Part shown: positions 1,475-62,231 of the stretch, in pieces
How positions within the stretch are numbered: the stretch's first letter is position 1
Layout: the number at the start of each line of letters is the position of its first letter
Assembly (NCBI GenBank): GCA_039720395.1
Contig: CM077831.1
Location: 12,305,803-12,369,802, forward strand
DNA length: 64,000 bases
Direction of reading: 5' to 3'
Source: Liquidambar formosana
Taxonomy: Eukaryota; Streptophyta; Magnoliopsida; Saxifragales; Altingiaceae
Notes under the pieces: generated by a model
What the model was told of the DNA's origin: nothing
Database searches by the model: none
Seen by the model: the letters and a program-made list of their open reading frames with translations, nothing else
Made by a program: the position numbers and the translations under genes

Positions 1475-1730
1475 TCAGTCGACTGAATTGCCATTTCAGT
1501 CAACTGAATTGTCCTGTGAATAGCTGCATAGGCTACTACCTGAATCAGTGGACTGAAAGTCCATTTTAGTCGACTCATTTGCCATTTCAGTCGACTGATT
1601 TGGCACATCAGTCAACTGATTTGCCTAGTGAGTGCAATCAAGAGTAGAGCCTGATTTAGTAGACTGAATGGTTAATTCAGTCGACTTAATTCCTCATTCA
1701 GTCGACTGATTTGACTTTTCAGTCAACTGA
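1475..1730. repeat. Array of ten palindromes TCAGTCGACTGA in exact 21-bp phase
   Basis: Twelve-base palindromes, exact or with one or two changes, start at 1475, 1496, 1545, 1566, 1587, 1608, 1656, 1677, 1698 and 1719. Within the three blocks (2, 4 and 4 copies) every start-to-start distance is 21 bp; the blocks are 49 and 48 bp apart. The nine-base linkers differ from one another while the palindromes are kept. The array sits directly upstream of the TATA box of the minus-strand gene. Dimeric protein binding on one helix face is an inference. Confidence 0.9.
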
Positions 1731-1836
1731 ATCACTAGGTAAATCAATTTCAACCAAAATCTTTTGATTGTGTGAGTGAAATGCAATGCATAATATAGAA
1801 ATACACCAAGATAAGAGTAGAAAAAAAAAATATGCA

Positions 1837-1996
1837 TCAATTCACTACATCATGCATTAAACACATGCCAAGTTCCCTTTTAATGAAGTTAAAATGGTCT
1901 TCTTGAAGAGGTTTAGCAAAGATATCAGCCAATTGATGGTCGGTACCTATGAAATCAATCTCAATATCACCTCTTGGGACATGATTGTGAGCGCCG
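1837..1996 (-). pseudogene. 3' end of a Ty1/copia pol (RNase H C-terminus, Copia A)
   Basis: The minus strand encodes HNHVPRGDIEIDFIGTDHQL followed by ADIFAKPL and KRELGMC, the standard C-terminus of a copia RNase H, most like SIRE/Maximus-type elements. It ends at a stop at 1837. The upstream coding part is missing because gypsy element E0 is inserted at 1997; it should lie beyond the other end of E0, outside the window. No LTR or polypurine tract of Copia A is recognised to the left. Confidence 0.8.
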
Positions 1997-2441
1997 TGTC
2001 CTTTCACCACGTCGGCTCGGGAGTACGCCACTAACCGCGAACGATTAGGGCGGAGAGGGAGTCGCCACCCGATTTTGGCCTCGGGAACCGATTGACCCCT
2101 AGCAAGGGTCCAACTCGTCATTACCAAAGGAATCAAGGTTCGGAGCTAGGGTACGCGGATGGGAAGGTGTTAGGTACCCATCTACGCCCGGTTAAAATCC
2201 GGCCCCCACATACATTTATTGGCTTTAATTAAAAAGGACTCAATTGAACTCGACCACTATGCAGGAAATTAGGTAAAATCAAGTAATGGCATGCAATGAT
2301 GGAAGATAAAGAGGGATTAAAGAGAATTATTTGAGCATATACACATATACAAGGGAAAAGATGTGAAATCGACAGAAAACCTACACTGCCTGTGCTGCCT
2401 GTAAAAGAGAAAAGGGGATTAATCTGAAAAAACAGGGTCAT

Positions 2442-2474
2442 GCACGTACGTGCATCCCTAATGCACGTACGTAC
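2442..2474. repeat. Phased palindrome pair (CGTACG word) in E0 LTR
   Basis: GCACGTACGTGC at 2442 and GCACGTACGTAC at 2463 start 21 bp apart. Unlike most modules this one lies downstream of the LTR TATA box in element sense. Confidence 0.85.
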
Positions 2475-3044
2475 ATGCCTTCTGATGAATGCCTCATGCC
2501 TAGATACATATATATGCCTACCATGCTACTGCCGAGTTAAAAAACCTATGAACAATTCGAATCATGCTTCAAAAATGACACTGGTACCCTAGATCTGAAT
2601 GTTAAGAATACATATTGATGCCACAGACAAAGTTTAATATAAATATATGCATATATAAACAGATACGAATGCTAGAGTCAACTTATAGATCTCATTTCCC
2701 CCTTTTGTGCTTAAAACAAATAAGAAAACCCATTCGAAATCCCTATATGTAACAATGAAATCTCTATCAAGTTGATTTTAACTATGTTCTAAATGCAAGC
2801 ACTAAATGAAGAGTTTTAATGAAACCTAATCTCATTTCATGTCATATTGCAAGTAATCATAAAGAACTACCAAAGAAGGCGGAATTAGGAGTTGGGAATC
2901 ATTACCCTCAGGTACGGGTAGCAGCAGTTCCTCCGCCAATTCTGCCTTTCGAACTCCTCGTAGACACAGCCGCCAATTTCGGGTTTTTAGAGTAGTGGTT
3001 TGGTAGCCAAAAATTCAGATCCCCTCTCTTGAATGAAAGCGGGG

Positions 3045-3052
3045 TATTTATA
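3045..3052 (-). promoter_or_regulatory. TATA box of E0 LTR
   Basis: Plus-strand TATTTATA is TATAAATA in element sense, the same octamer found in the LTRs of E1, E2 and E3. Confidence 0.6.
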
Positions 3053-3184
3053 GGTGGGGATTAGGGTTTGATTCGGGGGTTTCTAGGGTTTCCCAGCTGC
3101 CACTGAGCAGCCGTCAGCACGGGAGCTGCATATGGTAAGAAGCAATTTCGGGGGGAAGAGGTGGAATTCAAAAAAGGAGGCCAT

Positions 3185-3238
3185 GATCGTACGTGCATGC
3201 TATATGCATGTACGTGCATATCCCATGCACGTACGTGC
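3185..3238. promoter_or_regulatory. Phased palindrome triplet in E0 LTR, 133 bp upstream of TATA
   Basis: Words start at 3185 (GATCGTACGTGC), 3206 (GCATGTACGTGC) and 3227 (GCACGTACGTGC), exactly 21 bp apart. The third extends to the perfect 16-mer ATGCACGTACGTGCAT. In element sense the triplet is about 133 bp upstream of the TATAAATA at 3045-3052; the E3 LTR has its triplet at nearly the same distance. Confidence 0.85.
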
Positions 3239-3385
3239 ATGGGGTATCAAACTAAGGCCAAAGGCCTACTGTGTCTCCGTGAGTCCTTCGGGCGTGCTTG
3301 CGATGGTCCGTTGGCTACTGCCCTTCATCATTGGGTCTTAAAAAGTGGCTCGCGGTGTCAAGTGGTACAAAATGGGGTGTTAACA

Positions 3386-3654
3386 GTTTGCCCCTTCTTT
3401 TGATTTTGCTCATATAATGAACAAAATTAAAAGACCCGGAAACACTCATTTTGGACCAATCGGCTCCTACAAACCTTAAATGAGACAATTTGTATGTATG
3501 AAGGTCGGATCAGGGGAGGCCCCCTACTTCCTACGTACCTCTTAACGAGGATCAGACCTATCGTAGTTCATGGTAATACCTTTCCGGGGCAATCGGAAAG
3601 TGATGCGTGGCCTTCGGGGAATTTTACCATTTTGAAATTCGCAGGGTGAATTTC
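3386..3654 (-). other. Polypurine tract of E0 and adjoining 3' UTR
   Basis: Directly inside the LTR the element-sense strand reads AAAAGAAGGGGCAAAC, a purine-rich tract suited to prime plus-strand DNA (about 3386-3402). The rest is noncoding and includes a CTACTTCCTACGTACC motif near 3520. No gene is seen. Confidence 0.55.
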
Positions 3655-4160
3655 ATTTAAATCCAGGTTTGATTTAATTCCGAATTGGGACTCGTGGGAT
3701 GAATCCTAATTAAATCCGGGTTGATTTAATTCTGAATTGAAATTCACGGGATAAATTCCAATTAAATCCGGGTTGATTAAATTCTGATTTGAAATTCGCG
3801 GGGCGAATTCCAATTAAATCCGGGTTGATTTAATTCCGAATTGAAATTCGCGGGATAAATTCCAATTAAATCCGGGTTGATTAAATTCCGAATCGAAATT
3901 CGCGGGGTGAATTCCAATTAAATCCGGGTTGATTAAATTCCAAATCGAAATTCGCGGGGTGAATTCCAATTAAATCCGGGTTGATTAAATTCTGATTTGA
4001 AATTCGCGAGGTGAATTCCAATTGAATCCGGGTTGATTAAATCCGGGTTGATTGAATTCTGATTTGAAATTCGCGGGGTGAATTCCAATTAAATCCGGGT
4101 TGATTAAATCTCGAATTGAAATTCGTGGGGTGAATTCCAATTAAATCCGGGTTGATTGAA
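3655..4160. repeat. 52-bp tandem repeat array in E0
   Basis: The word AAATCCGGG recurs at 3712, 3764, 3816, 3868, 3920 and 3972, then (after a 15-bp insertion) at 4039, 4091 and 4143, a 52-bp period over about nine units. Each unit holds a small inverted repeat; the best (3795-3811) is AATTCGC-GGG-GCGAATT, others are decayed by one or two bases. The array occupies the same place as the 80-bp hairpin array of E1/E2 but is unrelated in sequence. Confidence 0.9.
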
Positions 4161-4234: not shown

Positions 4235-4288
4235 GATCGCACGTGCCTTGGTCACGCTTGCACGATCAGGCCTTATGCACGCACGTGC
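4235..4288 (+). promoter_or_regulatory. Phased palindrome triplet upstream of the E0 PMD gene
   Basis: GATCGCACGTGC (4235), a degenerate middle word (4256) and GCACGCACGTGC (4277) start 21 bp apart. A TATAAA box follows at 4381-4386, 93 bp downstream, and the PMD ATG at 4490. The E1 DUF7745-like gene has a comparable module-to-TATA distance (88 bp). Confidence 0.75.
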
Positions 4289-4836
4289 ATCCGGTTTTCG
4301 TGGGTATTCAAAAAGACTCCCCCAAACGGCGTCGTTTCTGGTGCATGGTTATGGGGTAGTTCAAAAGGCGCGAAAACGCCTATAAACTTGCGCCCACTCC
4401 CCATAATTCTCACGTACACTCCTACAAACCAAGAGACCTTACATCTCCCATCCTCACCTCCTGCTCCTCGACCTCATTCGAGCACACTCATGGCGCCCAA
4501 ACATCAGCGCACATCAGCGAAGGCGAGCACATCAGGTGCCGCACCGGCGAGGGACCCCGACGAGCTAGGGAGGCCCGCGATTCAGAGGTGGCGCCCCCAG
4601 CCTCACCTCCGACGTAGTGAGGATGGCATTCTTCTTTGCCCCACCGAGCACGCCTCCCATTTTACCGCGTTGGGCCGAGTAAGTTTTTATTTCCGCAATG
4701 TTTATTTCATTTTCGGTTACCGAGACGAAACCTTGACTTCGGGTTATCATGAAAACAAATGTGAGGGGACAAAATCTGGGGATTTTGATGGGATGTCACC
4801 GAGACGAGGAAGAATTGGAAAAAAATCCGGGTAAAG

Positions 4837-4890
4837 GCACGTACGTACATATCGAATGCGCGTACGTTCGTCTTATGCGTACGCACGTGT
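4837..4890. repeat. Phased palindrome module in intron 1 of the E0 PMD gene
   Basis: GCACGTACGTAC at 4837 and GCGCGTACGTTC at 4858 are 21 bp apart; a degenerate third word GTACGCACGTGT follows at 4879. Confidence 0.75.
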
Positions 4891-5037
4891 CTTTATCTGG
4901 ATTCAACCCATTCTTTTCCAATTAATCGTGGAATAAAACACACTTAAGCCTTTCCGAGGCCCGAAACAGGTGTGGGGGTTTGAAACCCCACGGGTTCACA
5001 TGGGTGTAACGGGGGATGGGAGCGGCATCAACCAGAT

Positions 5038-5091
5038 GCACGTACGTGCCTGACTGATGCACGTACGTGCTTACGGCATGCACGTACGTGC
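5038..5091. repeat. Perfect phased palindrome triplet in intron 1 of the E0 PMD gene
   Basis: GCACGTACGTGC occurs without change at 5038, 5059 and 5080 (21 bp, 21 bp). The nine-base linkers between the 12-mers differ. Confidence 0.95.
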
Positions 5092-5098
5092 TTGACTT

Positions 5099-5164
5099 TT
5101 ACTTTTCTTTCTTTCTTTCTTTCTTTCTTTTTTTTTTTTTTTGTTTTTTTGTTTTTTTTTTTTA
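5099..5164. repeat. CTTT microsatellite and poly-T tract
   Basis: A run of CTTT units passes into poly-T broken by single G residues. It lies in intron 1 of the E0 PMD gene, directly after a palindrome triplet. Confidence 0.9.
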
Positions 5165-5244
5165 TTAATCGTGCAATGAACGTGGAGTGGGGATTCCTGG
5201 GGGTATAATAGATAACGAAAAAAAGAGGCAAAAAATGGCCATGG

Positions 5245-5277
5245 GCACGTACGTGCTTATGGTGTGTACGTACGTGC
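5245..5277. repeat. Phased palindrome pair in intron 1 of the E0 PMD gene
   Basis: GCACGTACGTGC at 5245 and GTACGTACGTGC at 5266 start 21 bp apart. Confidence 0.85.
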
Positions 5278-7560
5278 CTGGCTGGTGCTTTCCTCTTTCT
5301 TTTCGGATTTTTTCCCTTTTTATTCTGCTGCAAATATACATACCTGTGCTGTGCTTACCTGGTTTCACCTTGTGCAACAGTTTCCCAAGCTGCCCGTCAC
5401 CCGTGGAGGCGTGGTGAACGCGAAGGCGTGGTGGGCTCGTCTCACAGCGGAGATGAAGGCCCTAGTTACCGGTGCTGGTTTTGGGACGGTGATCTCAGGG
5501 TTGGGGGACGACAGCGACTGGGCTTTCATTCACTGTATGGCTGAGAGGTGGTGGGACACCACCCATACTTTCCATATTGCAGGCCGGGAGCTGACCTTGA
5601 CCCCCTACGACTTCTACCGCCTCATCGGTTTGCGTATGGATGGCCTTCCGCTTCCTTTTGACCATGAGGAGAGCGAGAGGGAGTGACTCTCCCAAGAGCT
5701 TTTGGGGATTGAGTACGATAGTGCCTCCATCTTCATCTTGGACGTATATGACCGTATGTCTACCCAAGGGCAGGGTACAGCCGCCCAGCAGATCCGGATG
5801 GCACGCGGGTATTTGCTGTTTCTGATAGGGGGCTATCTAGTCCCGAATGCAGCGCAGACAGTCCCTTTTGGCTGGTTGCTGGCCTTGAGGGACTTAGGGA
5901 GGGCCCGCGAGTTCAGCTGGGGGGCGGCGGTGTATGGCCATGTGATCTCGGCTATGAACTCGTTGAGTCGGATGGCTGTTCAGTCCATGGTTAGCCACTA
6001 GCGGGTCTGGGCAGTATATATCCCTTCCTTTTCCCCCTCTTTTGTTTCTTTTCTTTTTTCTTGACTGTCATTCCATATTAGTTTCTTCTCACATCTACTT
6101 GTGCAACTTTGGGCAGGTCGGTACTTTCGCGCAGATCCGGATTCCCCCGTCGACAAGCATGCCTATTGGAGTTCCCGTCGCTTCCTAGACGAGCTGACCG
6201 TCGATCGGGTAAGTCCTATTTTACTTTAGTGGTATGGTTGGTAGCATTATACTCCTGCATTCACCCTAGTACTGCTTTTCCACAGATCATCCCACGCCTC
6301 TGGGAGGGCATCCCCGCAAGCGCCCCTGCCGAGTGGGACGCTGCTGCCTTGATGCTTTCTACCTTGTCCACGGTGTTCGAGTGCCCTGGGGTCCGCTCTT
6401 TCTATCTTGCGGAGAGGGTGGTATGGCAGATTGCCGACGTGGGTGTGGGTGGTCTTCCGGTCCCAGTGGATCCCATTCGTTTTGTCGCTATCCCTGCTGA
6501 GGCGACATCGAGTGACTTGGCTGCCTGGCGGGCCATGATCCCTTATACGGATCGTGTATCTGCCGAGGAGATTGACTACGCCTCCTTTGCGCGGGAGCGG
6601 TTGATGGGCAGCATCTTTGTTGCACCGGTATGTACACCCTTTCTTGAGTCTTGTTAATTTCCCATCTCTGCTTTCTTTTTAACACCTGTGCTTAACTTCT
6701 TTCCGCAGGCTGCTCCTACTGCAGATGCGCCTGCTGGGCTGGCCCCCATCATGCCGGGGTGGAGCGTGCCCTTCCATGTCACACCTGATTTAGCCATGGA
6801 GGAGGATATCCCCAGGCTAAACAGGTGCATTGGGTACCCGATGGCTGAGGGTACTAGGCCGGTGAGTTTCCAAGTTCCTGCATTTGTTAGTTTTCACACA
6901 TATATATACAAGTAAAGCATGCATGTCCTAACGATTGCCCCTTGCTTTTCTACTCGCAGCTCACCCGTGAGGAGTCCTCGACACTTTTGCGGATGGTGGG
7001 GAGCCTGAAGGTCATGGTCACGTCTCTCTCTCGCAGGTTAGTGATTGCGGAGCAGGCTCTTGCTGGAGAGGACTGGGACGGCTTCGGGGCTGACGAGGAT
7101 GACGGTGATGGTGATGGTGGTGATGACAGCGATGGTGGTGATGGTGGTGATGATGGTGGTGACGACAGCCCGCCAGCCTCTCCTGCCCAGACACCTTTAT
7201 ATGTTCCGCGTTGATGTATTTGTTTTGGATATTTGGGGATATTTATTTATTTTTTGGACATGTACTCATTTCTCCTTTCCTTTCTGTAGATTCAGACATG
7301 TACTCATTTCTCCTTCCCTTTCTATATATTTGGACATGACTGTTACTCTTCTTTTATGGCTGTGATATATCAAACATGGCTTGTTCTTCTCTTTTTCCTT
7401 TTCTTGTACGCCGCGATGTTCGCCATTTTTCCTTTTCCATTGCGCTAGGATAAATAGCAAGTCGTTTAATACAGGGAGAACACCCCAAAAGGCCTCATAT
7501 AACAGCAACAAGACCGTAAAATTGAGAAAAGGGGACGAAAACACGCGGAGAGGGGTCTGG

Positions 7561-7635
7561 GCACGTACGTGCATAGTCCATGCTCGTACGTGCACAGGCC
7601 ATGCTCGTACGTGCATGGCTTATGCTCGTACGATC
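7561..7635 (+). promoter_or_regulatory. Phased palindrome quadruplet upstream of the E0 DUF7745-like gene
   Basis: GCACGTACGTGC (7561), GCTCGTACGTGC (7582 and 7603) and GCTCGTACGATC (7624) start exactly 21 bp apart. The preceding 7215-7560 is PMD 3' UTR and spacer with repeated GGACATG(T)ACT phrases and no gene. The DUF7745-like ATG is at 7769; a weak CATAAAAC box lies at 7690. Confidence 0.9.
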
Positions 7636-7768: not shown

Positions 7769-9092
7769 ATGGCTCTTGTCCTTTGATATCCGAGCTCGGG
7801 ATGATTTCAAAGAAGCTTTCGGCCTCCCATGCTTGTTTGACTACTGTCGGGTGAAAATCAACTACACTTTTCTTCTCGTTGCTTCAGAATATTGGAAACC
7901 AACCCGCCACGTCTTCCGATTCAATCTGAATGAGTTATGCCCCACACTTGAAGATTTTGGCGGTATCATAGGGCGGACTAGCTTTAATGGCTTGCTTCTT
8001 CCCCCTATTGACAAGGTCCCTGCTGCAGAGGTGGCCCAATTCCTAGGCCTTTCTGTACGAATGGTGCAAGGGTGGACTTCGAGCTTTAAGGTGGACGTGG
8101 CGAAACTCGCCGAATATTTTGTGTCTCGTCCTATGCCTCCCGCTGGCCAGGCTCGGGTCTATTACCTGCGTGCGGTGTGCTTCTGTGCTCTTGCTGCCCT
8201 CTTTTTCAGAAATGAATCATCCAGCCTGGAGACTTTTATTGTTCGCATAATCCCGGAGATCAAGGATGGTTATCTTGGCAGATACTCTGAACGGGCTCGA
8301 TCGTGTGGCGTGGAGTGATAGTTTCTCCTTTGGTGGCAGCCCCCTCCTTTTACAGGTTTCTCTCTCTTCTTCTTTATTTTCTCGGATTTTTTTTTTTGAT
8401 GGCATGATCGTACGTGCATTGTGTATGCACGTAGGTGCATAATCCATGTACGTATGTGCATGGACTGTTGAGCATTCTGCCTTTACTCCTTTGTGATGCA
8501 GATCTGGCTGTTCGAACGCCTAAAACTGGTCGAAGACCCTGCCATGAGTATCTGGACATACCACCCGCAGCATTATCGTCACAGGAAGGTCACCAAACCT
8601 TTCCCAAATGTCGAGCAAGCCCTGGATTTGCTGGAATCCATATCCTGCCACAACATTCGCTGGCTCTGTCCTTAGTGGAGGACCTCTTATGCTGTTCGAA
8701 ATCTGATCCTTCCTCACAGCGTCATGCTGATTGGTCTTAAGGAGGTTTCTTTCTATTCCCCTATACGCATCTGCCGTCAGCAAGGGCTACGCTAGGATCC
8801 GATTAAATGGGGTCACCTTGGTTACACCTGCCCCTAGAAACCCAACCATGTGGATCGTGTGGAGAATGACTGGTACAACAAGGCAGTGTATTGGGCCGTC
8901 ACCCCCTCTGAAGTGATTAACCCCCCTGGTCCTACTATACCTGGCTGTTTACTGACATGGAGAGAGAGGAAAAAGAAGAAGAAGAACACAAGAGGAAAAG
9001 GGAAACAGAGGTCGAAACAAAAGCAAGGAAGAAGTGAACTTGACTATCCCCCGTACCCCTATCAACTATTGTACCCCTACATTTGCTTTTAA
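7769..9092 (+). pseudogene. Antisense cargo gene of E0: DUF7745-like protein, broken, one intron
   Basis: After an ATG at 7769 and an immediate frame break, the protein reads RDDFKEAFGLPCLFDYCRV, then HVFRFNLNELCPTLEDFGGI, aligning with RKEFKRYCLDPLFSLMHVK and HVFRFNYEELCPTMEEFCAL of E1. The PTLEEY-type motif is typical of DUF7745, a plant family related to PMD and often found in retrotransposons (recalled, not searched). A frame change near 8270 is followed by FGGSPLLLQ, a GT-AG intron (8356-8501) and IWLFERLKLV. A stop follows WLCP near 8673, and the lysine-rich tail is in another frame. The intron is absent from E1 and contains a palindrome triplet. Confidence 0.7.
8406..8459. repeat. Phased palindrome triplet inside the DUF7745-like intron of E0
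   Basis: GATCGTACGTGC (8406), GCACGTAGGTGC (8427) and GTACGTATGTGC (8448) are exactly 21 bp apart. The module fills much of a 146-bp intron that E1 and E2 lack. Confidence 0.9.
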
Positions 9093-14291: not shown

Positions 14292-14371
14292 CTCGGGTGA
14301 CCACCTGGGGCTGGGCGGCTAGCAGCCTGGGCCCAGGCGGCTAGCCGCCCAGGCCTAGGTGGTCACCCGAG
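14292..14371. promoter_or_regulatory. 80-bp GC-rich palindrome module in the E1 LTR
   Basis: Two 40-base arms with no spacer pair at 37 of 40 positions around CCTGGG/CCCAGG. Inside are four palindromic or near-palindromic words centred near 14300, 14320, 14342 and 14362, 20-22 bp apart, with GGCGGCTAGCCGCC as core. It lies about 190 bp upstream of the LTR TATA in element sense. Confidence 0.9.
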
Positions 14372-15086
14372 GCCATGTCAGCTTCAGCCCAAATTTGACC
14401 CTTTCGGCTTCCAAATGTGTTTCAGGGTTCAATTTAACTCCGATTTTGACGAAACGAAAGCCAAAACGACCGTGTTTCGAAGGGGAATGTAATTTGAGTC
14501 ACTTGAGGGCGAGAAACCCTAGCCATGGCTGCATGGTTGGGCCCTACAAAGGTAGTTAACCGCTATGCCTCACCATCGCTTAGCTTAGGTATGCACATAG
14601 GGTCGCACCGAATGCTTTCCAATTCGAAATTCAACCTCCCTAAACACATTTGGGGATGAAATTAAGACCAATTAAGGTCAAATGAGTAGTCATAGAGTGA
14701 AAATCATGAGCCAATTCGAGCTAACCCGAAGTAGGTCTTTTAGCCAACTTGAGCCTTGCTGAGCCATTCTAATCCCGAACCTCCAATTCATCGAATTGGT
14801 CCCACAAATACCTCAAATACAACCATATGAACTCCAATTGGCAACTTGGAGATCATTTCAAGGTCAAATGGAAAGTTTGTGATCAAAAAGACAATTATGC
14901 CCCTCAAGTCACAAAAGTTCTAATTAACCCTCGAGATCAACTCCAAATCGAACCAAAATTCATAGACACCATCCTTAGGACCCTAGAAACTCAATGCAAA
15001 AGACTAGACTCAAAAAAGGAAACAAAAAGACACATGCAATGACAAACCCTAGCTAAGGTGACAGGTGGCAAAAATGGGGTGTGACA

Positions 15087-16814: not shown

Positions 16815-16893
16815 AGGCTGACCACCTGGCTGCTGGTGGCTTGCCGCCCAAGCCCAGGCGGCTTGCCGCCCCATGCTGGGCGGTTACCCGAGG
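16815..16893 (+). promoter_or_regulatory. GC-rich palindrome module upstream of the E1 PMD gene
   Basis: Words centred near 16821, 16841.5 (GGTGGCTTGCCGCC), 16863.5 (GGCGGCTTGCCGCC) and 16885 (GGTTACC) are 20-22 bp apart. The module is a diverged relative of the LTR module and lies about 300 bp before the PMD ATG. Confidence 0.8.
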
Positions 16894-17189
16894 CTGGTGC
16901 TGCCCAGTTTGAGGGTTTTTAAACCCTTGACTCCCCATTTGTTGCACACACACACCCAATTCGAAAATAGAGAGTTTCTCTCTCTAGAAACTCATTCCAT
17001 CTTCTCCAAACACTCACAAACACATTCTCAATCAAAGTTTCACTTGCAATTCAAGTTGTGTGCATGAAATAGCATCAAGAACAAGTCATTCAACAACAAA
17101 AACAAGCATCAATCATCAAGTTGCAAGATCAAATTCATCATCTTCCTTATCAAACCCATTTTTCTCACATACAAGCTCAACCATCAACA

Positions 17190-19915: not shown

Positions 19916-20104
19916 GAATTTCAATTCCCAACCTTGAACCTTTATTATGGATACTTGATGAATCTATGTTCGAACTTTATTGCAATGATATGATCTTGTA
20001 TTGAGTGAAAAATGGGCTTAAATCAAGCACAAAAAAGTCAAAACATCACAAAAGGGCCAAACGAAGGCATAACAAGGCAAAAATGGGCAAAACAAAGCGG
20101 CGGC

Positions 20105-20184
20105 CTCGGGTGACCACCTGGGGCTGGGCGGCTAGCCGCCTGGGCCCAGGCGGCTAGCCGCCCAGGCCTGGGTGGTCACCCGAG
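20105..20184 (+). promoter_or_regulatory. 80-bp palindrome module upstream of the E1 DUF7745-like gene
   Basis: Forty-base arms meet at 20144/20145 and pair at 37 of 40 positions; sequence almost equal to the LTR module. TATAAAAG follows at 20272-20279 (88 bp) and the ATG at 20328. The left flank 19916-20104 is noncoding. Confidence 0.9.
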
Positions 20185-20327: not shown

Positions 20328-21614
20328 ATGGAAGCCCTAGACAAGCTCTTGAGTGATTTTCTGAAGGTTATGAGTGCGGAGGCAAGGAAGGAGTTCAAGC
20401 GCTACTGCTTGGATCCATTGTTTTCTTTGATGCATGTGAAGCTTGAAACCACTCTTCTTGCTGCTGCTACATATTTTTGGGATCCCCAACTTCATGTATT
20501 CCGCTTCAACTATGAAGAACTATGCCCAACAATGGAGGAATTCTGCGCCTTGTATGGAGTTTCACCTGTAGGACCTTTCATCCTCCCTACTCCACGCTCA
20601 AGTTACTTGATTTCCTTCTCCAACTTCCTTGGGATTTCTCAACAAGAGGCCTCCATATTTGTGAAGGATCATAAGGTGAATCTCATGGAAATAGCAACTT
20701 CCTTCTTGGCTCATGATAGCAAAGGTACCTTGGATTTCAACCTTCCTACTCAACATGCTCTTGCTTTCTGCTTGGTTGGTCGCTTCCTTATCTCCACAGG
20801 GACTCTCTATGTCCCTATTCAAATTTGTGAACTGATTCCTTTTCTTCTTGAACACAACAACCTGATTCCCATGGTGCTAGCTAAAACCCTCAACAGTTTA
20901 GACAAAGTTCATGATAACCCACAAGCCCCATTAGGAGGGAGCCCCGTTCTACTGCAGATGTGGCTTCTTGAAAGGCTTAATTTCTTATCTCTTACCACCA
21001 TCAATCCATACAAGCCTCAACATTACTGCTGCCGTCGAGTTGAACTCCCTGGTCAATTTTCTTTGAGGGAATGGTTAGGCTACTTCCAAACTCTCTCATG
21101 GCGAAACATCAGGTGGTTTGTCTCCACATGGGGATGCAAGGAACAAATTCTTCTTCGAACTTCTGGGTGTGCTATGGTCAAGCTCGTAGGGTTGAGGTCA
21201 ACTTCATTCTATTGGACTTCAAGAATCCTTCGTCAAATGGGTGCCATGCAAACCATACCTACTTCTGTGGTATTTGATCATTCTGTCGAACCTGTGGGCC
21301 CCACAATGGTTAAGTGGGCCAAGACTAGATGGACTGACCAACTGAAACTGACTCGAGTTGAAAACACTGATGGGCCTTATGTCATGAGCCCTGAATACAA
21401 GACATGGTTGAAGACTAGCTTGGGTGAAAGAGAAACCATACGCAGAGAGAGGATTTATGACCTTATCAAGGACACAGGACTTGGATTTTGCAGGGAAGAC
21501 ATTCTGGAAGCAATGGAAGCAGCACATGCTCATGACTTGCGAAAGAAGCGAAGATTCGAAAGAAAGGAGCAGAAAGCAAACCAAGAGACTCTGAAGAAAA
21601 TCAAAAGGACTTGA
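20328..21614 (+). CDS. Antisense cargo gene of E1: DUF7745-like protein, single exon, 428 aa
   Basis: The intact frame starts MEALDKLLSDFLKVMSAEAR after a TATA box. Residues about 45-85 contain AAATYFWDPQLHVFRFNYEE and LCPTMEEFCALYGVSP, the signature region of DUF7745/PMD-related proteins; then SYLISFSNFLGISQQEASIF, GGSPVLLQMWLLERLNFL and WVFxTWG-like repeats. The C-terminus is charged (LRKKRRFERKEQKANQETLK), consistent with a coiled or nucleic-acid-facing tail. It converges on pol across a T-rich tract. Where E0 has a 146-bp intron, E1 reads straight through VLLQ-MWLLER, so the intron is precisely absent. No enzymatic motif is visible; function unknown. Confidence 0.75.
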   Translation: MEALDKLLSDFLKVMSAEARKEFKRYCLDPLFSLMHVKLETTLLAAATYFWDPQLHVFRFNYEELCPTMEEFCALYGVSPVGPFILPTPRSSYLISFSNFLGISQQEASIFVKDHKVNLMEIATSFLAHDSKGTLDFNLPTQHALAFCLVGRFLISTGTLYVPIQICELIPFLLEHNNLIPMVLAKTLNSLDKVHDNPQAPLGGSPVLLQMWLLERLNFLSLTTINPYKPQHYCCRRVELPGQFSLREWLGYFQTLSWRNIRWFVSTWGCKEQILLRTSGCAMVKLVGLRSTSFYWTSRILRQMGAMQTIPTSVVFDHSVEPVGPTMVKWAKTRWTDQLKLTRVENTDGPYVMSPEYKTWLKTSLGERETIRRERIYDLIKDTGLGFCREDILEAMEAAHAHDLRKKRRFERKEQKANQETLKKIKRT

Positions 21615-38046: not shown

Positions 38047-41000
38047 TGTGGACCCCAGAAATGGTTAGGGCCCACAGGAGGGTTTAAAAGTCGCCAATCT
38101 GTGGACCCAGGAAAAGAGGGCCCACGAATGGGTTTGGAAAAAGAAAGGAGTTGCCACCTTATTTTTTAAAGGAAACAAGGAAAACCCTAAAAACGGTTTT
38201 GTTTTAGGAAAACAAAAGATTGACTCCATATTTAAAAATGGAAAGGCAAATGATCTTTTGGAAACCAGAGAATTCGGGGATTCAGAGGCTAAGTTACGAT
38301 ATGGGAAGGTTCTAGGCAAAGCCTATAGGCACCCATATCGCCCTAAACGGTCTCTTAATTTAATTGGGCTAAATCAAAGTCTTAATCACACATAAATCAA
38401 CAGTTATCATCACAAGACAGCATGCATATCATTCATTCATTCATCCATATAATCATGTAAATCAAAGAAAAAAACAGAAAAAAGAAGGAGGGGGAGAAAA
38501 CCTAGGATACTTAGTATCCTAGGGCGGACTTGAACATCACGAAGAGCGCCTACGTACCATGTATGGAAATACATGGATCAAAGTCCACGTAGTTCGAAAG
38601 GGAATAGGGTTATAACCTAATCAAGGCCTATGGTAAACCCTAAGTTTCCTTTCAAGTAAAACATGGTAAGTTTCCAAAAATAAATGATTCTCAAAAGATT
38701 TTTGGTAAATATGGAATTTGATAACAAGAATGGAAACTTTGATTTAAAAGGTATCTTTTATTGAAAGGAAACTATAGAATCTACCATACCCCTCTATTAG
38801 GAAACAACCCTAGGGGGGGAGAAAAGGAAAGTTTCAAAGGAAGGAAAGAAGGGTGAATTGGGGCACCCTCACACCCTACTTACCTTTAGCAAAAGCAACC
38901 TGTCAAAATAACCACCCTATTGCATAGGGTAATTTGCAAGATTTCATCTCGCAATAGCCAAAAGAACCACCCCACATTGGTGGGGTAGTTGCACCTGTTG
39001 TACCTGTCAAAACACTTGCAATTTCCATGCAAAACATACCAAAAATACCAACCAAACAAGCTAGATTCCAAATCAAGCCATTATCATGCCCAAACATGGG
39101 CTAACACATGCTCAAAATATCATATCAAGGACAAATAACAGATCTGGACAGAATTGAAATAAGGTTTAAAATCAACCACAAGTCATGCAACAACATGAAT
39201 CATAAGCTAACTGAAACCCTAATTCAACCCTACATGCAATGACATGCAAAAAACCCTAAAATCAACTATATGAATGCTAGAAATATCATAGTTATCAAAT
39301 ATGCAGCACATATATGTCAACTATGAAGAAAACACAAGAAAAAACCCTAAGCTATCATGCTATATGCTACTTTCCTAATACAAGGATGAATGAAACCCTG
39401 GAATCGCAATTGTGCTCAAAATCACATAAAATAACTCTAAATCATGCAAAGCCCATCATAGACATCATGCTAATCATGCATATTAATCAATAGAAGCATC
39501 AACACATGATAAAAACACAAGCTTGCACATGAAATATAGCTATTCTAAGTAAAAACCTAATTTCAGCACAAGAGAAACCCTAGAATTGCAAACATGCATT
39601 AAATCACATGGAACAGCATCCTAGCATACTAAACAGCCCACAAATATTATACTAATCATGCATACTAACTAATAGAAATAGCAAAACACAACAAAAACAC
39701 AAACTTTAATATGCAAAAGAGTTATTTCATGCAGAAAACCGTTTTAAGCACCTAAGAAACCCTAAAGTCCCAAACATGCAGTAAATCACATGGAATAACA
39801 TCCTAGCATACTAAACAGCCCACAAACATGATCCTAAACATGCATGGAAGCAACAAGACGTGATAAAAACACAAGCTCTAATATACCAAAGAGTTATTTC
39901 ATGCAGAAAACCATTTTAAGCACCTAAGAAACCCTAAAGTCCCAAACATGCAGTAAATCACATGGAATAACATCCTAGCATACTAAACAGCCCACAAATA
40001 TGATCCTAAACATGCATACATACCAATGGAAGCAACAAGACATGATAAAAACACAAGCTTTGATATGCAATCATCCTACTCTATGCAAAACCCTAACTTT
40101 AAAAGAGAGAAGAGGAGGAAGGGAGGCATACCTATGGTGAAGTATCCTTTTGCTGCTGTAGGGAGTCCTCCTTCTCTTGTGTACTGCTGGGAATTCCTTC
40201 CTTCAAGCCTTCAAGCAATGCTCCAGTCCTCCTTCAAGCTTTCTCTCACACTCTCTCACTCAAAGTTTAGGTTAAACTACCCTAAGGATGGCTGCCATAG
40301 CCTCCAAGTCTCACACAAAGTGCCTCAAAAGTCTCCCTTATTGCTGAAGTATAAGGGGGTATTTATAGGGATTGAGGGGAAACCCTCAATGGTTGGGATT
40401 AAAACCCTAGGGATTGATCCAAGGGCTCTTAGAGGTTACCTTGGGGCTCAAGTAGGTCAAAAAGGGCTGAAATTAGGGTTAAATGGCGGCCAAAGGCGAG
40501 CAAATCCGAGAAAATAGGGTGGGAGCCGCGTCAAGGCTCAAAAAAGGAAAGTGGCTCGGGTGACCACCTGGGGCTGGGCGGCTAGCAGCCTGGGCCCAGG
40601 CGGCTAGCCGCCCAGGCCTAGGTGGTCACCCGAGGCCATGTCAGCATCAGCCCAAATTTGACCCTTTCGGCTTCCAAATGTGTTTCAGGGTTCAATTTAA
40701 CTCCGATTTTGACGAAACGAAAGCCAAAACGACCGTGTTTCGAAGGGGAATGTAATTTGAGTCACTTGAGGGCGAGAAACCCTAGCCATGGCTGCATGGT
40801 TGGGCCCTACAAAGGTAGTTAACCGCTATGCCTCACCATCGCTTAGCTTAGGTATGCACATAGGGTCGCACCGAATGCTTTCCAATTCGAAATTCAACCT
40901 CCCTAAACACATTTGGGGATGAAATTAAGACCAATTAAGGTCAAATGAGTAGTCATAGAGTGAAAATCATGAGCCAATTCGAGCTAACCCGAAGTAGGTC

Positions 41001-41348: not shown

Positions 41349-43243
41349 GAAGCCCCTCATTGGCGAGCAAGTTTCACTTGCGAACCAATGACCAAAAGAA
41401 CAACCCATTTTTGCCCGGGGAATTGATTTAATCAAGACCCACTGGGGAAAAGAGGGTGAACATATCATTGAATTCTTCGAATTCATCATACACAAGCACA
41501 AAGGTACTCTTCATAAGTTCTACAGAACTCCTCTCATGCTGTATACCAGTTTCACTGGGGAACAAGATGAGGTATCCACAGGTTACATCGAACTTCGTTC
41601 GATGAAAGGTCTTCCAATTCTATGCCAGTGACAACTGGCGAATGGTACGAGGTAACATTATGCCATCAAGGCCATCCCAAAATATGAGAAAGATACATCC
41701 TTCTCATATTCAAACCGTCAAGGTTATTACTCAAATATCAAGGTAATCACATCCCATACTGCACCAGTGACAACTGGTGAATAATACGAGGTATCCATAG
41801 CTTACATCGAACTTCGTTCGATGAAAGGTCTTCCCATACTATGCCAGTGACAACTGGCGAATAGTACGAGGTATCCATAACTTACATCGAACTTCGTTCG
41901 ATGAAAGGTCTTCCCATACTGTACCAGTGACAACTGGTGAATAGTACAAGGTATCCATAGCTTACATCGAACTTCGTTCGATGAAAGGTCTTCCCATACT
42001 GTACCAGTGACAACTGGTGAATAGTACAAGGTATCCATAGCTTACATCGAACTTCGTTCGATGAAAGGTCTTCCCATACTTTGCCAGTGACAACTGGCGA
42101 ATAGTACGAGGTAACACCATGCCATCAAGGCTATCCCAAAATATGAGAAAGATACATCCTTCTCATATTCAAACCATCAAGGTTATCATTGAAATACATA
42201 ACACGAGAAAGATCACGTCCTTCTCTTGCTCAAGTCAATCAAGGTAAACACATACCACAGGAAGCCGTCAAGGCTATCTCAAAACATGAGAAAGATACAT
42301 CCTTCTCATATTCAAACCATCAAGGTTATCATTCAATTGTTAAGGTAGTCACATAGTACGAGGAAGGTCACAACCTTCAATCAAGGTAAACACATACCAT
42401 TGGGAAAGATCGCATCTTTCAAGTCATCAAGGTAAACATAGGACGTGAGAAAGATTGCATCCTTCTCATATCAAACTCTCAAGGTGAACACATAGCATGA
42501 GAAAGATCGCGTCCTTCTCATAATCAAACCATCAAGGTCAACACAAGTCATGGGGAAAATTGCATCTTTCAAGTCATCAAGGTAAGCATGTAATCATGAG
42601 GAAGATTTCATCTTTCTCTCACTAAGTCATCAAGACAAAAGGTAAGCTTCTACTCACCAACACACAACAAGTTCACCAAGTCATCTCACATGGAGGCTAT
42701 TCATGCCTCAACTCAAACACCAACTCATATAGGATACACAATTATCTCATGAAAGCAATCACTCACATGCAAATAGGGAAGGTATCTTTATCCCAAATGA
42801 CAACAAATCATAGTGACATAGGAGGGAATTCCTCCCTAATGATCAAAAATCATATGCATAGAGAGGGTTGTTCAACCCTACTAGCATGCCATGCCCACAC
42901 AAGGGCCACCAATGCAATCTCTTTCAAATCATTTCATGTCAAACAAAGTCAAGATATTTATTCATTTTTCAACTCAAAACATGCTTGAGATTTCATCTCA
43001 AAGAGGGTTCAAAAGCGCGAATAGGCGAGCAAAGGCCAAACGAGCGCAACGGAGCGAGCAAGGGAGGCTGACCACCTGGCTGCTGGTGGCTTGCCGCCCA
43101 AGCCCAGGCGGCTTGCCGCCCCATGCTGGGCGGTTACCCGAGGCTGGTGCTGCCCAGTTTGAGGGTTTTTAAACCCTTGACTCCCCATTTGTTGCACACA
43201 CACACCCAATTCGAAAATAGAGAGTTTCTCTCTCTAGAAACTC
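41349..43243. repeat. Hairpin train and 80-bp array of E2
   Basis: Same sequence type as 15087-16993 in E1. Array units with ATCGAACTTCGTTCGAT recur at about 41586, 41804, 41884, 41964 and 42044. The second stem has A:T outer pairs at 41763, 41923 and 42003 and G:C pairs at about 41623, 41843 and 42083, repeating the paired change seen in E1 in a different unit order. Confidence 0.9.
43065..43143 (+). promoter_or_regulatory. GC-rich palindrome module upstream of the E2 PMD gene
   Basis: Unchanged relative to the E1 module at 16815-16893 as far as I can see, although the downstream gene is broken. Confidence 0.8.
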
Positions 43244-46110: not shown

Positions 46111-46366
46111 GTTTCACTCACCTCTTGTTAGGAATGTTGGAACCTTATTATCTATCTTGTTATGTACTTAATTAGGAATTTCAATTCCCAACCTTGAACT
46201 CCTTATTATGGATACTTGATGAATCTATGTTCGAACTTTATTGCAATGATATGATCTTGTATTGATGTGAAAAATGGGCTTAAATCAAGCACAAAAAAGT
46301 CAAAACATCACAAAAGGGCCAAACGAAGGCATAACAAGGCAAAAATGGGCGAAACAAGACGGCGGC

Positions 46367-46447
46367 CTCGGGTGACCACCTGGGGCTGGGCGGCTAGCCG
46401 CCTGGGCCCTAGGCGGCTAGCCGCCCAGGCCTGGGTGGTCACCCGAG
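46367..46447 (+). promoter_or_regulatory. Palindrome module upstream of the E2 DUF7745-like gene
   Basis: Equal to 20105-20184 in E1 with one extra T at the centre (GGGCCCTAGG). TATAAAAG follows at 46535-46542 and the ATG at 46591. Confidence 0.85.
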
Positions 46448-58500: not shown

Positions 58501-58843
58501 TCTTTTAGCCAACCTGAGCCTTAATGAGCCATTCTAATCCCAAACCTCCAATTCATCGAATTGGTCCCACAAATACCTCAAATACAACCATATGAACTCC
58601 AATTGGCAACTTGGAGATCATTTCAAGGTCAAATGGAAAGTTTGTGATCAAAAAGACAATTATGCCCCTCAAGTCACAAAAGTTCTAATTAACCCTCGAG
58701 ATCAACTCCAAATCGAACCAAAATTCATAGACACCATCCTTAGGACCCTAGAAACTCAATGCAAAAGACTAGACTCAAAAAGGAAACAAAAAGACACATG
58801 CAATGACAAACCCTAGCTAAGGTGACAAAAATGGGGTGTGACA
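55548..58843 (-). repeat. E2 right LTR (5' LTR)
   Basis: Starts TGTGGACCCTGAAAAAGTGG and ends AAAATGGGGTGTGACA. It carries more changes than the left LTR does against E1, including a short deletion before the terminal ATGGGGTGTGACA. Palindrome module at 58057-58136, TATA at 57861-57868. Confidence 0.9.
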
Positions 58844-59509
58844 CCAGCAGGGGATTCTAATACTGTTGGTCATCAGTACTGATGTAGTGTAAAGTCTCAC
58901 GATGATGGGCGCCTATAAATGTGAGTCTAGCCAGAGAAAGTACTTGTATGAACTAATGTTTATTGATTTGTTTTATATCAATCAATGATTTTAAAGTGAT
59001 TTATCGAATGAATTGTTATCGAAAGTGTTTCAGTGTAATTGTTTATTGAATTGAAAGCAAGAGAACTATTTCTAAAAGTTTATATGCCTACTGAATTGAA
59101 AAAAATGATTTATTGTAAAACTCTATCGTTTTGTTACTCATGTTTTTATATTGTAAATCATGTTTTTAGAAGGTAATGTTGTCGCCAACAAATGTGCTAA
59201 CATGGGCTTGCAATATACCGGGTTTCAATGGTGGCACTTCGCTCCCAAGGATCTTTACTCTCTTATTTGCCATGACATATATAGTTTGCCATCCTATCAC
59301 TTTAGAACTTAAAGTTTGTATTATGTAAGCTGAATAGTGACAAGTATAAGTCACCATGACCAGAGTTTTTGGTTCCTCCTTGTTATTCTTTTCTTTCTTT
59401 TAATAATATTTAGAGGAATGAGCACATGATTGGGAGCTTCTTAAGGTGCCAACCTAGTTGGGATTGTGGGTAGCTTTTTGATGCTTTTCCTCTTTTCTTA
59501 AAATAAAAC

Positions 59510-59543
<34 letters not shown>

Positions 59544-59618
59544 GAAATATCTCTGAACCGAGGTTACAGCTCGGGATAGAAAGCTCAAACTGGAAACGCT
59601 GACACGTGGCAAAGGCCG
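58844..59618. other. Unassigned spacer with TA/TG microsatellite
   Basis: AT-rich noncoding DNA between E2 and E3. A (TA)n(TG)n tract lies at about 59511-59542. It shows neither Copia B nor gypsy coding sequence. GGCCG (59614-59618) would be the left target-site copy of E3. Confidence 0.5.
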
Positions 59619-62231
59619 TGTCACACCCCATTTTTGCACCACCTTACTAGGGCTCATCATTTCATGCATGTTTTTGTTTTGTTTTTGAGTCTAGTCACTT
59701 GCATTAGTTTTCTAGAGTCACAAGGACAATGGATATGAATTTTGGTTCAAATTGGAGTTGATCTTGAGGGATAATAAGAGCTTTTGTGACTTGAGGGGCA
59801 TAATCGTCTTTTAAGTCCCAAACTTTTCATTTGACCTTGGAATGATCTCCAAATTGTCAATTGGAGTTCATATGGATGCATATGAGGTACTTAAGTCCCG
59901 TGGCCCTGATGATGAGTTTAGTGTGGTTATTTACGGATTATCTTTGAAGAATTAGTGCGAATCACAACATGAGATTTTTGGTTAAAATGAAAAGAAAATT
60001 ATTTTATTAAATTAGCCATTTTTATCATGACACTAACACGTGTACGTATGTGATGAGTGTGTGTACGCACATACAATACATGTGCATGCGTGTTAGCGGT
60101 CAGTCTCCCAATTTTTATAAAAGACAATTTCCTTTTCCTATTCAGATTAGAAGTCTTTTATCATTATAAAATACCTTTTGATTATTCTCCAAGGAAACCT
60201 AGTCCAGGAAGGAAAGGGAAACTCCAGATTTCAGCTATAAATACTCTCTTAATGTCTTTAAACAAGGAGAAGAGAAGAGGGTTTGGAGGGAGTGAAAGTC
60301 GTCATAATTCAGCAGCAGATTTTCTGAAAACTAGCAATCGTATTTTAATCATAACTTTTTCATCCGAAGTCCGAATTTGATGAAATTGGTCTTGTTAGAA
60401 AGATAATTCAATTCTCTACAACTTTGTATTTCACAAGCTTTGTCCAAATCCAACGTTTTCATACCCAAAAACGCGATTGAAGTTGCTGCTGCTGCAAAGT
60501 GACGAGAATCACTTTTTCTTTTCTCTTGTTCTCTTTTTGTTTTCTATTTCTTTTCAAAGTTGAGTGAATTTTGATCTCTTTGCTGTGATACCACTTTGAC
60601 AAAGAGGAGGATTCGTGTTGGTTTGATTCACTCTAAAGACCTGAGGAGCCACGAACAATTGCATACAGCAGCAAGGGGAGCCACTTCCTAAGGTACTCTC
60701 CTTCTCTATTCAAGCTTAAACTAGGTTCTCATATGGGTTAGGCTTATTGCATGTTAAAGGTAACTTTTTTATCATGTATTAACACTCTAGCTAGTTAATA
60801 TACATGGAATATCTATTTTTTATCTACTGATTAGCATGCTTTAGGGCTGTCCTTTAGGTTTTTAATGCATAGTTGTGATTCTTGTGCTCCTGTTTGTCCT
60901 TGTTTTAGGATTAGTGTCATTGCATGTTAGAGTTAGGATTTTCATCATGTTATATTGCTTTAGTTAGTTAATATGCATGATTTAATTTCTGTTTAGTTTG
61001 GTTTTAGCATGATTAAAGTATGTTTTGTATGTTTTTAAGCATATTTGTGAGTTTAGGGTTTTAGAGTCATTGTTTCGTGTTTATTTTCATATAGCATGAT
61101 AAAGTAGACTTTTTTATTTGGTTTTTCTTCGTGTTTGCTGTATATGTTTTTCATATGGAGTAAACATGATAGTTTTGCATGCATGTTAGTATGTTTTAGG
61201 GTTTTTATGCATGATATGGTTCTAGGAATATGTTAGGACTTATTATTGTTCGCTGTTTTTGCTATTGGCATGCTTAGTGGATGATTTTAGGTCATAATAC
61301 TATTCTGTCCAGATTTGCATGTTAGTGTTTTTGCATGGTTTTGAGCACTTGTAAGGGTGCAAATAGGTGTGGTATTTGTCCCATGGCAAATAGGGCTGCT
61401 TATGTCTGAAATGGCTAAATGCTTGGAGCTAATTGCGCTCAGGTAAGTGGGTGTGAAGGTGCCCCAATTCACCTTTCTTCTTAACTCATTCTCTTCTCCC
61501 TATTTAGGGTTAATTTTTAATATGATCCTATGGTTTAATTAGAGGTTTCCTTAACCAACAAAATTCTGGTTTTTATTAAAGTTTCCATCTTGTGGATTTC
61601 TTTCCTAAAATCAAACTTTCTATCATATTCAACTCTTTTGATCAAATAAGGAAACCTAGGGTTTTTACCATAGGTTTGTATTAGGATTTAACCTTAGTTC
61701 TAATCGAACTACGTGGACTTTGATCCATGTATTTCGTTGCATGGTACGTAGGCGCTCTTCGTGAGGCTCAAGTCCGTTCTAGGATCCAAGCATCCTAGGT
61801 TTATTTATGTTTTCTTTTCTTCTTTTTATTTTCTGTTTTTATTTGCTTATTATGCATGGATGGATGAATGAAATATATGATATGCATGCAATTATTGTGA
61901 TGATATACTTGCTGATTTTTGTATGGAAAGACTTTAATTTAGCCCAAATGAACTGAGAGACCGAAAGGGTGACATGGGTGCCTATAGGCTTTGCCTAGAA
62001 CCTTCCCATGTCATAACTTAGCCTCCGAATCCCCGATTTCTTTGGTTTTCAAAAGATTGGTTTTTGCCTTTCCTTTTTTTATGGAGTCATTCAAATTGTT
62101 TTCCTAAAACAACCTGATTTTTAGGGTTTTCCTTGTTTCCTTTAAAAAATAAGGTGGCGACTCCTTTCCTTTTTCCTTTTCAAACCCACTTTCTTTTCAA
62201 TCCCTCGTGGGCCCAATTTTCGGGGTTCACA
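59619..62231 (+). repeat. E3 5' LTR (2613 bp)
   Basis: TGTCACACCCCATTTTTGCA ... TTTTCGGGGTTCACA, followed by GTT and the PBS. TATAAATA at 60236-60243; a second TATAAAAG at about 60116. U5 keeps CCTAGAACCTTCCCATGTC, the stem CTAGGAT/ATCCTAG near 61783 and AAGGTGGCGACTCC, all shared with E1. It lacks the duplicated LTR end of E1/E2. Confidence 0.9.
60042..60095 (+). promoter_or_regulatory. Diverged 21-bp palindrome triplet in E3 LTR
   Basis: GTACGTATGTGA (60042), GTACGCACAT (60063) and GCATGCGTGTT (60084) are again 21 bp apart, 141 bp upstream of TATAAATA. Words are decayed, but spacing and place match the E0 LTR triplet. Confidence 0.65.

Follow-up and report, generated by a model that had tools for sequence, protein, structure and literature searches.

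We found groups of palindromic words, spaced at or close to 21 bp, in LTR retrotransposons of Liquidambar formosana, where they stand by promoters and, in one element, in extra-gene introns. The window, that is, the whole stretch of 64,000 nucleotides analyzed, holds such groups in a Sirevirus at its left edge and in three Ty3 elements, E0 to E2 (Table 1). Their layout suggests sites where a DNA-binding protein docks. In our judgment the chances are about even that they are clustered sites for a palindrome-reading protein, most likely the element's own extra protein, with an action like that of VANC.

Table 1. Arrays, modules, LTRs and extra genes in the window
Feature	Position	Strand	Remarks
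Sirevirus extra ORF, broken frame in window copy	547..1368	-	Piece 555-848 matches Transposase_32
Sirevirus array, ten TCAGTCGACTGA words	1475..1730	-	Between pol end and extra ORF; 21-bp phase within blocks
E0 3' LTR, Ty3 Ogre/Tat type	1989..3386	-	Ends by eye; supported by homologous LTR in L032
E0 array, 2 words	2442..2474	.	In LTR, downstream of LTR TATA box
E0 array, 3 words	3185..3238	.	In LTR; CTATAAATA 133 bp downstream
E0 array, 2 words 42 bp apart, degenerate middle unit	4235..4288	.	PMD-gene TATA box 93 bp downstream
E0 antisense PMD gene	4490..7211	+	Putative ATG 4490; intron 1 at 4679-5380 inferred by eye
E0 array, 3 words	4837..4890	.	PMD intron 1
E0 array, 3 perfect words	5038..5091	.	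PMD intron 1
E0 array, 2 words	5245..5277	.	PMD intron 1
E0 array, 4 words	7561..7635	.	Upstream of DUF7745 gene; no strict TATA box within 300 bp
E0 antisense DUF7745 gene	7769..8737	+	Putative ATG 7769; approximate extent; PF24924 1.6e-5, just under gathering score
E0 array, 3 words	8406..8459	.	Within 146-bp intron 8356-8501, missing from E1 DUF7745 gene
E1 LTR module, two GGCGGCTAGCCGCC words 22 bp apart	14294..14376	-	CTATAAATA 190 bp downstream; second LTR copy 31934-32016
E1 module before antisense PMD gene (ATG 17190)	16815..16898	+	No strict TATA box within 300 bp
E1 antisense PMD frame, 235 aa	17878..18585	+	PF10536 8.5e-25, DUF1985 3.3e-4; VANC21-like predicted fold
E1 module before antisense DUF7745 gene	20095..20180	+	CTATAAAAG 92 bp downstream
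E1 antisense DUF7745 gene, open frame	20328..21614	+	PF24924 6.6e-14, PF10536 3.6e-13
E2 LTR module	40557..40640	-	Second LTR copy near 58059-58142
E2 module before PMD gene	43066..43148	+	
E2 module before DUF7745 gene	46357..46443	+	Word spacing 23 bp
E3 candidate of the preliminary description	60042..60095	+	Phased palindrome array not supported

The preliminary description had placed 21-bp groups at ten sites, with about 23 intervals, nearly all exact. When every copy with at most three mismatches was listed, the total was indeed 23, of which 20 were exactly 21 bp, one was 42 bp and two were block breaks. The left-edge array consists of blocks of 2, 4 and 4 copies, with all seven within-block intervals exactly 21 bp and block breaks of 49 and 48 bp. 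The in-register copies of the E0 word, GCACGTACGTGC, gave 13 intervals of exactly 21 bp in the eight arrays; the 42-bp interval runs from 4235 to 4277 across a unit at 4256 that carries 5 mismatches. Off-register matches at +4 and +17 in the E0 arrays were set aside, and low-complexity palindromes removed, before counting; one P value, at 6/8, also left out the duplicates in E2 and the E0 array that follows TATA in the LTR, and a later calculation gave 6/9. The left-edge array held 6 lag-21 palindrome pairs (at least 6/8 pairs) versus 0 in 100 shuffles, and E0 held 10 by the same threshold versus a shuffle mean of 0.13 and a maximum of 2 (100 shuffles). An excess at lag 21 is confirmed at the left-edge and E0 sites. 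It is not confirmed at E3, where lag 21 gave 0 pairs and lag 20 gave 2, against a shuffle mean of 0.11 and a maximum of 3. Identities at E3 were 17/44 at lag 21, no better than 19/48 at lag 17 or 16/42 at lag 23, and its membership is not supported. A strict 21 bp everywhere was also rejected, as E1 and E2 are spaced at 22 bp and clusters in a 200-kb sample also at 24 to 68 bp.

E0 words were 81 to 83% identical, within as well as between arrays, versus 22 to 26%, the random level, for the five bases in the middle of the linker. Equal conservation of linkers and words had been named as the mark of an ordinary 21-bp minisatellite; because the central linkers are random, E0 is not one by that measure, and we rejected this explanation for it. 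In the Sirevirus, word identity was 84 to 88% versus 40 to 48% for central linker bases. Deviations in the E0 words were uncompensated in 26 cases and compensated in 2, which speaks against our leading reading of the arrays as clustered binding sites.

A relative, L032, has one extra 21-bp unit at the position homologous to the E0 array at 2442 and has also gained a three-site segment. Such gains fit a neutral history in which slippage copied a 21-bp palindrome unit, so that spacing was inherited and the words are unselected. Tandem Repeats Finder reported period-21 arrays at six places, the LTR and DUF7745 modules of E1 are near-identical, linkers included, and homologous copies show weak conservation of their words, a point that also tells against our leading reading (E0-L032 words, 53/60 versus 980/1271, P = 0.02; E1-E2 modules, 3/254 columns differing versus 38/1982 outside, P = 0.6). 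However, neutral duplication does not account for E0 words that are about 82% alike although their central linkers are random, for the recurrence of 20 to 22 bp with different words in other elements, or for the preference of arrays for promoters and introns, and we consider it decidedly unlikely.

For E1 and E2, GC-rich words 20 to 22 bp apart had been described. The word, GGCGGCTAGCCGCC, contains a CGG-CCG core, and its spacing measured 22 bp (23 bp once, in E2), with an 11-bp sub-spacing, within one large inverted repeat; none of the modules lies in an intron. Transcribed arrays could form hairpins that yield 21- to 24-nt siRNA or miRNA-like products, as host silencing hotspots or decoys, with 21 bp as Dicer-sized units. 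Eight of nine tested stretches folded at z values of -4.6 to -9.1, with no shuffle as good, and the E1 LTR and DUF7745 modules reached -73 and -77 kcal/mol, respectively. Palindromic LTR regions of maize Sireviruses are reportedly siRNA hotspots, as Bousios is said to have found in 2016. Hairpin folding is, however, expected of tandem palindromes anyway. The E1 PMD module gave a z of -2.1, with 5 shuffles as good, random linkers in E0 interrupt long perfect duplexes, and neither the 22 bp of E1/E2 nor the Sirevirus block breaks (48 to 49 and 59 bp overall) match the proposed unit. A hairpin function, and with it the 21-nt small-RNA selection suggested in the preliminary description, is unlikely.

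The left-edge array is homologous to L027 4658-4934, a site with a copia pol frame on one side and the extra ORF on the other. L029, L027 and L030 are one copy in the L. formosana genome, read in three pieces, in which both array positions and the published LTR/PBS junction are present: ATTGGTATCAGAGC lies directly 3' of the LTR, in agreement with the Sirevirus junction (ATTGG-TATCAGAGC). The linker region of this copy and window positions 547-1985 share 92% identity, and the extra ORF DNA of the window likewise matches L027 at 92%. This copy carries 11 linker words (L027, at most 2 mismatches) and 6 per LTR (L029 and L030, at most 3 mismatches), in keeping with the at least 8 palindromic motifs per element of published RM boxes. 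As with RM boxes, copies stand in the LTR upstream of TATA (L029 array 1317-1470, TATATAA at 1589) and ahead of the env-like gene (in L027, the linker array followed by an ORF at 4957).

A different word for each family had been proposed, and this holds only in part. Several distinct words do occur, and L009 and L029 differ in word despite the same Sirevirus PBS junction; an exception is the Ty3 element L025, both LTRs of which have the word and layout of the Sirevirus. No extra frame of at least 180 aa was seen in L025, although a shorter or spliced one may be present. The case of L025 goes against an element-encoded binder. It suits the possibility that each family acquired palindromes of a different host regulator and multiplied them in its promoters, leading to stress or tissue expression. 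A TATA box follows most promoter-side arrays, another point for host factors. In the same direction, we take GGCGGCT/AGCCGCC to be the ERF GCC-box, ACGT cores to be bZIP/bHLH sites and GTCGAC to be similar to the CBF core. Stress-factor sites predominated in the RM boxes analyzed by Bousios et al. (PMC2829016). On the other hand, five of the eight E0 arrays do not precede a promoter, namely the three in PMD intron 1, the one in the DUF7745 intron and the one in the LTR that follows TATA. Of the other three, one stands in the LTR, one before the PMD gene and one before the DUF7745 gene. The different words of L009 and L029 also argue against host factors, which would leave a VANC21-like fold beside the arrays unexplained. 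We regard host-factor sites as possible but doubtful.

That fold is a prediction for the E1 PMD frame, whose helical model (pLDDT 67.5, middling) aligned with VANC21 in a second comparison over 104 chains. Against the leading reading, Foldseek searches of PDB and viral models gave no significant match, and VANC21 was absent from the 13 rows listed for this model. The DUF7745 model had a pLDDT of 38.8, and hhalign of DUF7745 versus PMD gave a probability of 2.8. PDB sequence searches yielded no relevant match, and no relative turned up when viral contigs were scanned by pattern and by protein. Exon pieces of the E0 PMD gene matched PF10536 (4.4e-6 and 3e-4) and DUF1985 (0.0041), all under gathering scores. 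The Sirevirus extra-ORF piece matched PF20167 at 2.2e-8, under the gathering score (L027 relative, 9e-6), and a search for homologues of this Transposase_32 piece returned one protein.

Dimeric regulators on one DNA face, as proposed in the preliminary description, are the best-supported reading, to which the symmetric words, two-turn spacing, free E0 linkers and the TATA box downstream of most promoter arrays point; binding and dimerization are what we infer. The binder would read the palindromes most likely as a dimer, and adjacent dimers would lie two helical turns apart on one face; cooperative binding would therefore be probable. The same sites at the LTR promoter and extra-gene promoters (in E0, introns too) would form one self-regulated set per element. 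The likeliest binder in E0 to E2 would be the PMD/DUF1985-like antisense product, and in the Sirevirus perhaps the Transposase_32 protein. It would act like VANC, tagging the DNA of its own family so that this escapes silencing or is activated, and word and protein would change together from family to family.

More broadly, and only tentatively, both plant LTR superfamilies may run VANC-like self-recognition: their extra ORFs (PMD, DUF7745, Transposase_32 and, by extension, Transposase_28) would be sequence-specific anti-silencers acting on two-turn-phased family palindromes in LTRs, gene promoters and introns, with word and protein co-evolving and gene-less elements such as L025 free-riding. 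The role of extra ORFs in plant LTR retrotransposons is stated as open in PMC6317226, PMC11728184 and PMC11963269, and PMC12844716 (January 2026) leaves open an influence of these proteins on the epigenetic landscape of their elements. Should the arrays be the binding sites of these proteins, extra-ORF function becomes directly testable, because each family supplies both a bait (the word) and a protein of its own. If true, the broader claim would carry anti-silencing over from DNA transposons to LTR retrotransposons, a large share of many plant genomes, and provide a cis/trans model for free-riding among elements.

The statement that no described retrotransposon feature of this form was known was wrong for the left-edge array. 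RM boxes (Bousios et al. 2010, PMC2829016) are palindromic repeated motifs that vary from one Sirevirus to another and are found both in LTRs and ahead of the env-like gene. They resemble the left-edge array in being many-copy, element-specific palindromes that precede TATA in the LTR and stand directly before the env-like or extra gene, and TCAGTCGACTGA comes close to the Vitis RM CGGTCGACCG (PMC2829016). In the text available from that paper, RM boxes are termed Sirevirus-specific, with no 21-bp phase or fixed spacing given; 12/13 published RMs have a CGG-CCG core, the exception being Tnd-1, and 4/13 RM-bearing Sireviruses are without an env-like gene, an observation unfavorable to an element-encoded binder. 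The left-edge word, by contrast, lacks the CGG-CCG core, as does the E0 word, and E0 to E2, with Ty3-type gag-pol (in E1, frames matching RVT_1, RNase H, rve and Retrotrans_gag; in E0, a 70%-identical integrase region), fall outside the Sireviruses. Relative to these accounts of RM boxes, the 21-bp phase, the Ty3 elements with antisense genes and the E0 intron arrays are points of difference.

In Ogre/Tat/Retand elements, likewise, antisense genes occupy the stretch from pol to the 3' LTR (Neumann 2019, PMC6317226; Vicient 2025, PMC11963269). According to the sections consulted, 57% of Ogre elements have PMD, tandem arrays specific to a family are present in that region, and DNA binding is suggested for Transposase_28 (PMC6317226; PMC11963269). 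Phased palindromes are not described in those sections, and the genes in E0 to E2 are PMD and DUF7745.

VANDALs differ from E0 to E2 in being Mutator-like DNA transposons rather than LTR retrotransposons with gag-pol. The domain called in E0 to E2 is mainly PMD, with putative binding and demethylation, and the reported VANC21 motif, YAGTATTAY, is not palindromic, which weighs against an element-encoded binder. There are likenesses too. As far as the excerpts go, VANC is a TE-encoded protein with DUF1985, and its family-specific motif arrays lie upstream and in introns, with units gained and lost (Hosaka et al. 2017, PMC5735166; PMC10398659). E0 shares arrays in noncoding regions including introns, whereas those of E1 and E2 lie outside introns. 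A candidate counterpart of the VANC protein is the E1 PMD frame, whose predicted fold can be aligned with that of VANC21.

The window (C12:12305803-12369802) contains plant DNA with nested LTR retrotransposons, whose coordinates are collected in the table. In E0 and E1, two genes lie between pol and the 3′ LTR, antisense to gag-pol, one with a Plant Mobile Domain (PMD) and one with a DUF7745 domain. PMD was also detected in E2, which, because it is so similar to E1, would have a DUF7745 gene as well. Protein pieces of E0 and E1 share 18 to 36% identity, and the label Ogre/Tat is based on the antisense PMD gene and the layout, not on a tree. L019, another stretch of this genome, runs across the E1 insertion site (window 11605/32727) at L019:359-2015; therefore, E0 resumes at 32727, past E1. 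Tandem arrays in noncoding parts of E0 and E1 (52 bp, 3632-4157; 80 bp, 15490-15851; 172 bp, 13027-13797) adjoin the palindrome arrays yet are distinct from them. The record of one PMD fragment, P0011, names the bacterium Modestobacter lapidis as its source; it is probably plant contamination.

Retrotransposons in the window
Feature	Position	Strand	Remarks
Ty1/copia Sirevirus, 3′ part	1-1988	-	
E0, Ty3 Ogre/Tat-type	from 1989	-	interrupted by E1 insertion at 11605
E1	11606-32727		LTR identity, 99.86% over 3482 bp
copia polyprotein frame	33296-36910		
E2	38047-58827		96.7% identity to E1 over 18 kb
E3, start of element	from 59619	+	

The preliminary description proposed palindromic words phased at exactly 21 bp. 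Counting words with up to 3 mismatches, we confirmed this for the left array (the Sirevirus array at 1475-1730), in which 7/7 within-block intervals were 21 bp, with block breaks of 49 and 48 bp. E0 conformed at 13 intervals and departed at one of 42 bp. At lag 21, the left array had 6 palindrome pairs, with none in 100 shuffles, and E0 had 10 (mean of 0.13 and maximum of 2 in 100 shuffles). In E1 and E2, for which 20 to 22 bp had been proposed, an inverted repeat of about 80 bp holds two GGCGGCTAGCCGCC words spaced by 22 bp, and in one case by 23. E3 was not supported as a phased palindrome array. Agreement within and between E0 arrays was 81 to 83% for words and 22 to 26% for central linkers; the Sirevirus values were 84 to 88% and 40 to 48%. 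Deviations inside E0 words were mostly one-sided (26 versus 2 compensated), so compensatory evolution is not seen, and the right half-site was better preserved than the left. Block breaks of 48, 49, 58, and 59 bp (window:1508-1655, L029:1337-1396, L016:1473-1531) are near half-integral numbers of helix turns, which may place consecutive blocks on opposite faces of the DNA.

An E0-type LTR in L032 (74% identity to that of E0) differs in both arrays: one is longer by a 21-bp unit, and in the other, three sites are duplicated. Word positions were identical at 53/60, compared to 980/1271 elsewhere (P 0.02). Between E1 and E2, modules were not significantly better conserved than their surroundings (differences, 3/254 versus 38/1982; P 0.6).

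A single module stands at each promoter of E1 and E2 (LTR, PMD gene, and DUF7745 gene). Of the eight E0 arrays, the LTR holds two, a further two precede the PMD and DUF7745 genes, respectively, PMD intron 1 (4679-5380, splice sites judged by eye) contains three, and the last lies in the DUF7745 intron at 8356-8501. This intron splits GGSPLLLQ / IWLFERL, where E1 reads uninterrupted GGSPVLLQMWLLERL; it is 146 bp long, and the E1 gene has no intron at that place. TATA[AT]A was present downstream of 8 of 12 promoter-side sites, on the right strand and no more than 200 bp away (a cutoff picked after the data were seen), compared to 10.2% of random stretches of that length. Excluding the three E2 duplicates left 6/9 sites (P 7e-5), and excluding E3 as well left 5/8 (P 5e-4). 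The motif was absent from this interval at E0 DUF7745, E1 PMD, and the E0 LTR array at 2442. CpG observed/expected was 1.43 in E0 arrays versus 0.78 in whole E0; E1 modules (0.43 to 0.54) were little above E1 itself (0.42).

In the 718-Mb assembly, there are 289 matches to TCAGTCGACTGA-N9-TCAGTCGACTGA (none for the reversed control) and 489 to TCAGTCGACTGA pairs with gaps of 0 to 30 (control, 0); among the 50 of these 489 matches listed, all on contig C1, distances were 21 (28 pairs), 42 (21 pairs), and 20 (one pair). One Sirevirus copy of this genome, read in three pieces, has LTR spacings of 20, 59, 21, 21, and 21, TATA 118 bp downstream, the published LTR/PBS junction, and, upstream of the extra ORF, a linker array whose blocks are separated by breaks of 48/49. 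In 20 samples of 10 kb spaced evenly along C1, there were 9 clusters of similar palindromes, versus 0 in each of 10 shuffles. Among similar-word pairs at lags 16 to 63, 9/36 fell at 20 to 22 (P 0.0003), although one array contributes three of the nine and a second array two. L009 bears a new word, AGGATCGATCCT, at 21/47/22, followed after about 660 bp by an identical Sirevirus PBS junction; thus, the word varies within Sireviruses while the spacing stays near 21. L017 has another, TTCAGACGTCTTAA, at 20/21. Since other clusters showed other spacings (24 to 68), 21 bp is a preference, not a law. Elsewhere, AGTTACATGTAACT palindromes in L019:2577-4871 are irregularly spaced, often close to multiples of 26 to 27, and a GTATTGAC repeat in L009:201-616 has many 23-bp steps.

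LTRs 98% identical flank Ty3 gag, protease, and reverse transcriptase frames in L025, with no further internal frame among those of at least 180 aa. Each LTR (974-1118, 7952-8096) has TCAGTCGACTGA at 21, 21, 21, 49, and 21; this Ty3 element thus bears the Sirevirus word array, likewise with the 21-bp phase and a 49-bp break. L026 and L028 have part of this LTR in common, arrays included. Modules may be passing from one superfamily to the other; alternatively, a common factor may act on all of these elements. The LTRs of E1 and E3 are 81 to 83% identical at their ends, but their central parts, which in E1 contain the module, are different; in L009, the beginning of the LTR resembles E3 (95%) and the module resembles E1 (82 to 85%). 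Aligned, window:59619-62240, L009:775-3272, and the E1 LTR (11606-15087) have similar ends around middles with different modules. In sequence, related LTRs look as if promoter cores had been exchanged.

The extension to Ty3 elements, the two-turn phase, the free linkers, the intron arrays, and a VANC21-like predicted fold (VANC21 being an anti-silencing protein of VANDAL DNA transposons) point to one mechanism with a putative binder; that host factors bind the words is a serious alternative. We compared the consulted portions of Bousios 2010, Hosaka 2017, EMBO Rep 2023, Neumann 2019, Vicient 2025, PMC11728184, and PMC12844716. Searches of the open-licence literature yielded neither a report of phased palindromes in Ogre/Tat elements nor a link between extra genes of LTR retrotransposons and VANC beyond an open question in the consulted part of PMC12844716. 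The array at the left edge is of a known type, already described in the part consulted of Bousios 2010 (PMC2829016). As far as searched, what is new is that such arrays also occur in Ty3 elements carrying antisense PMD and DUF7745 genes, that a two-turn phase is combined with free linkers, and that there are intron arrays and a VANC21-like predicted fold.
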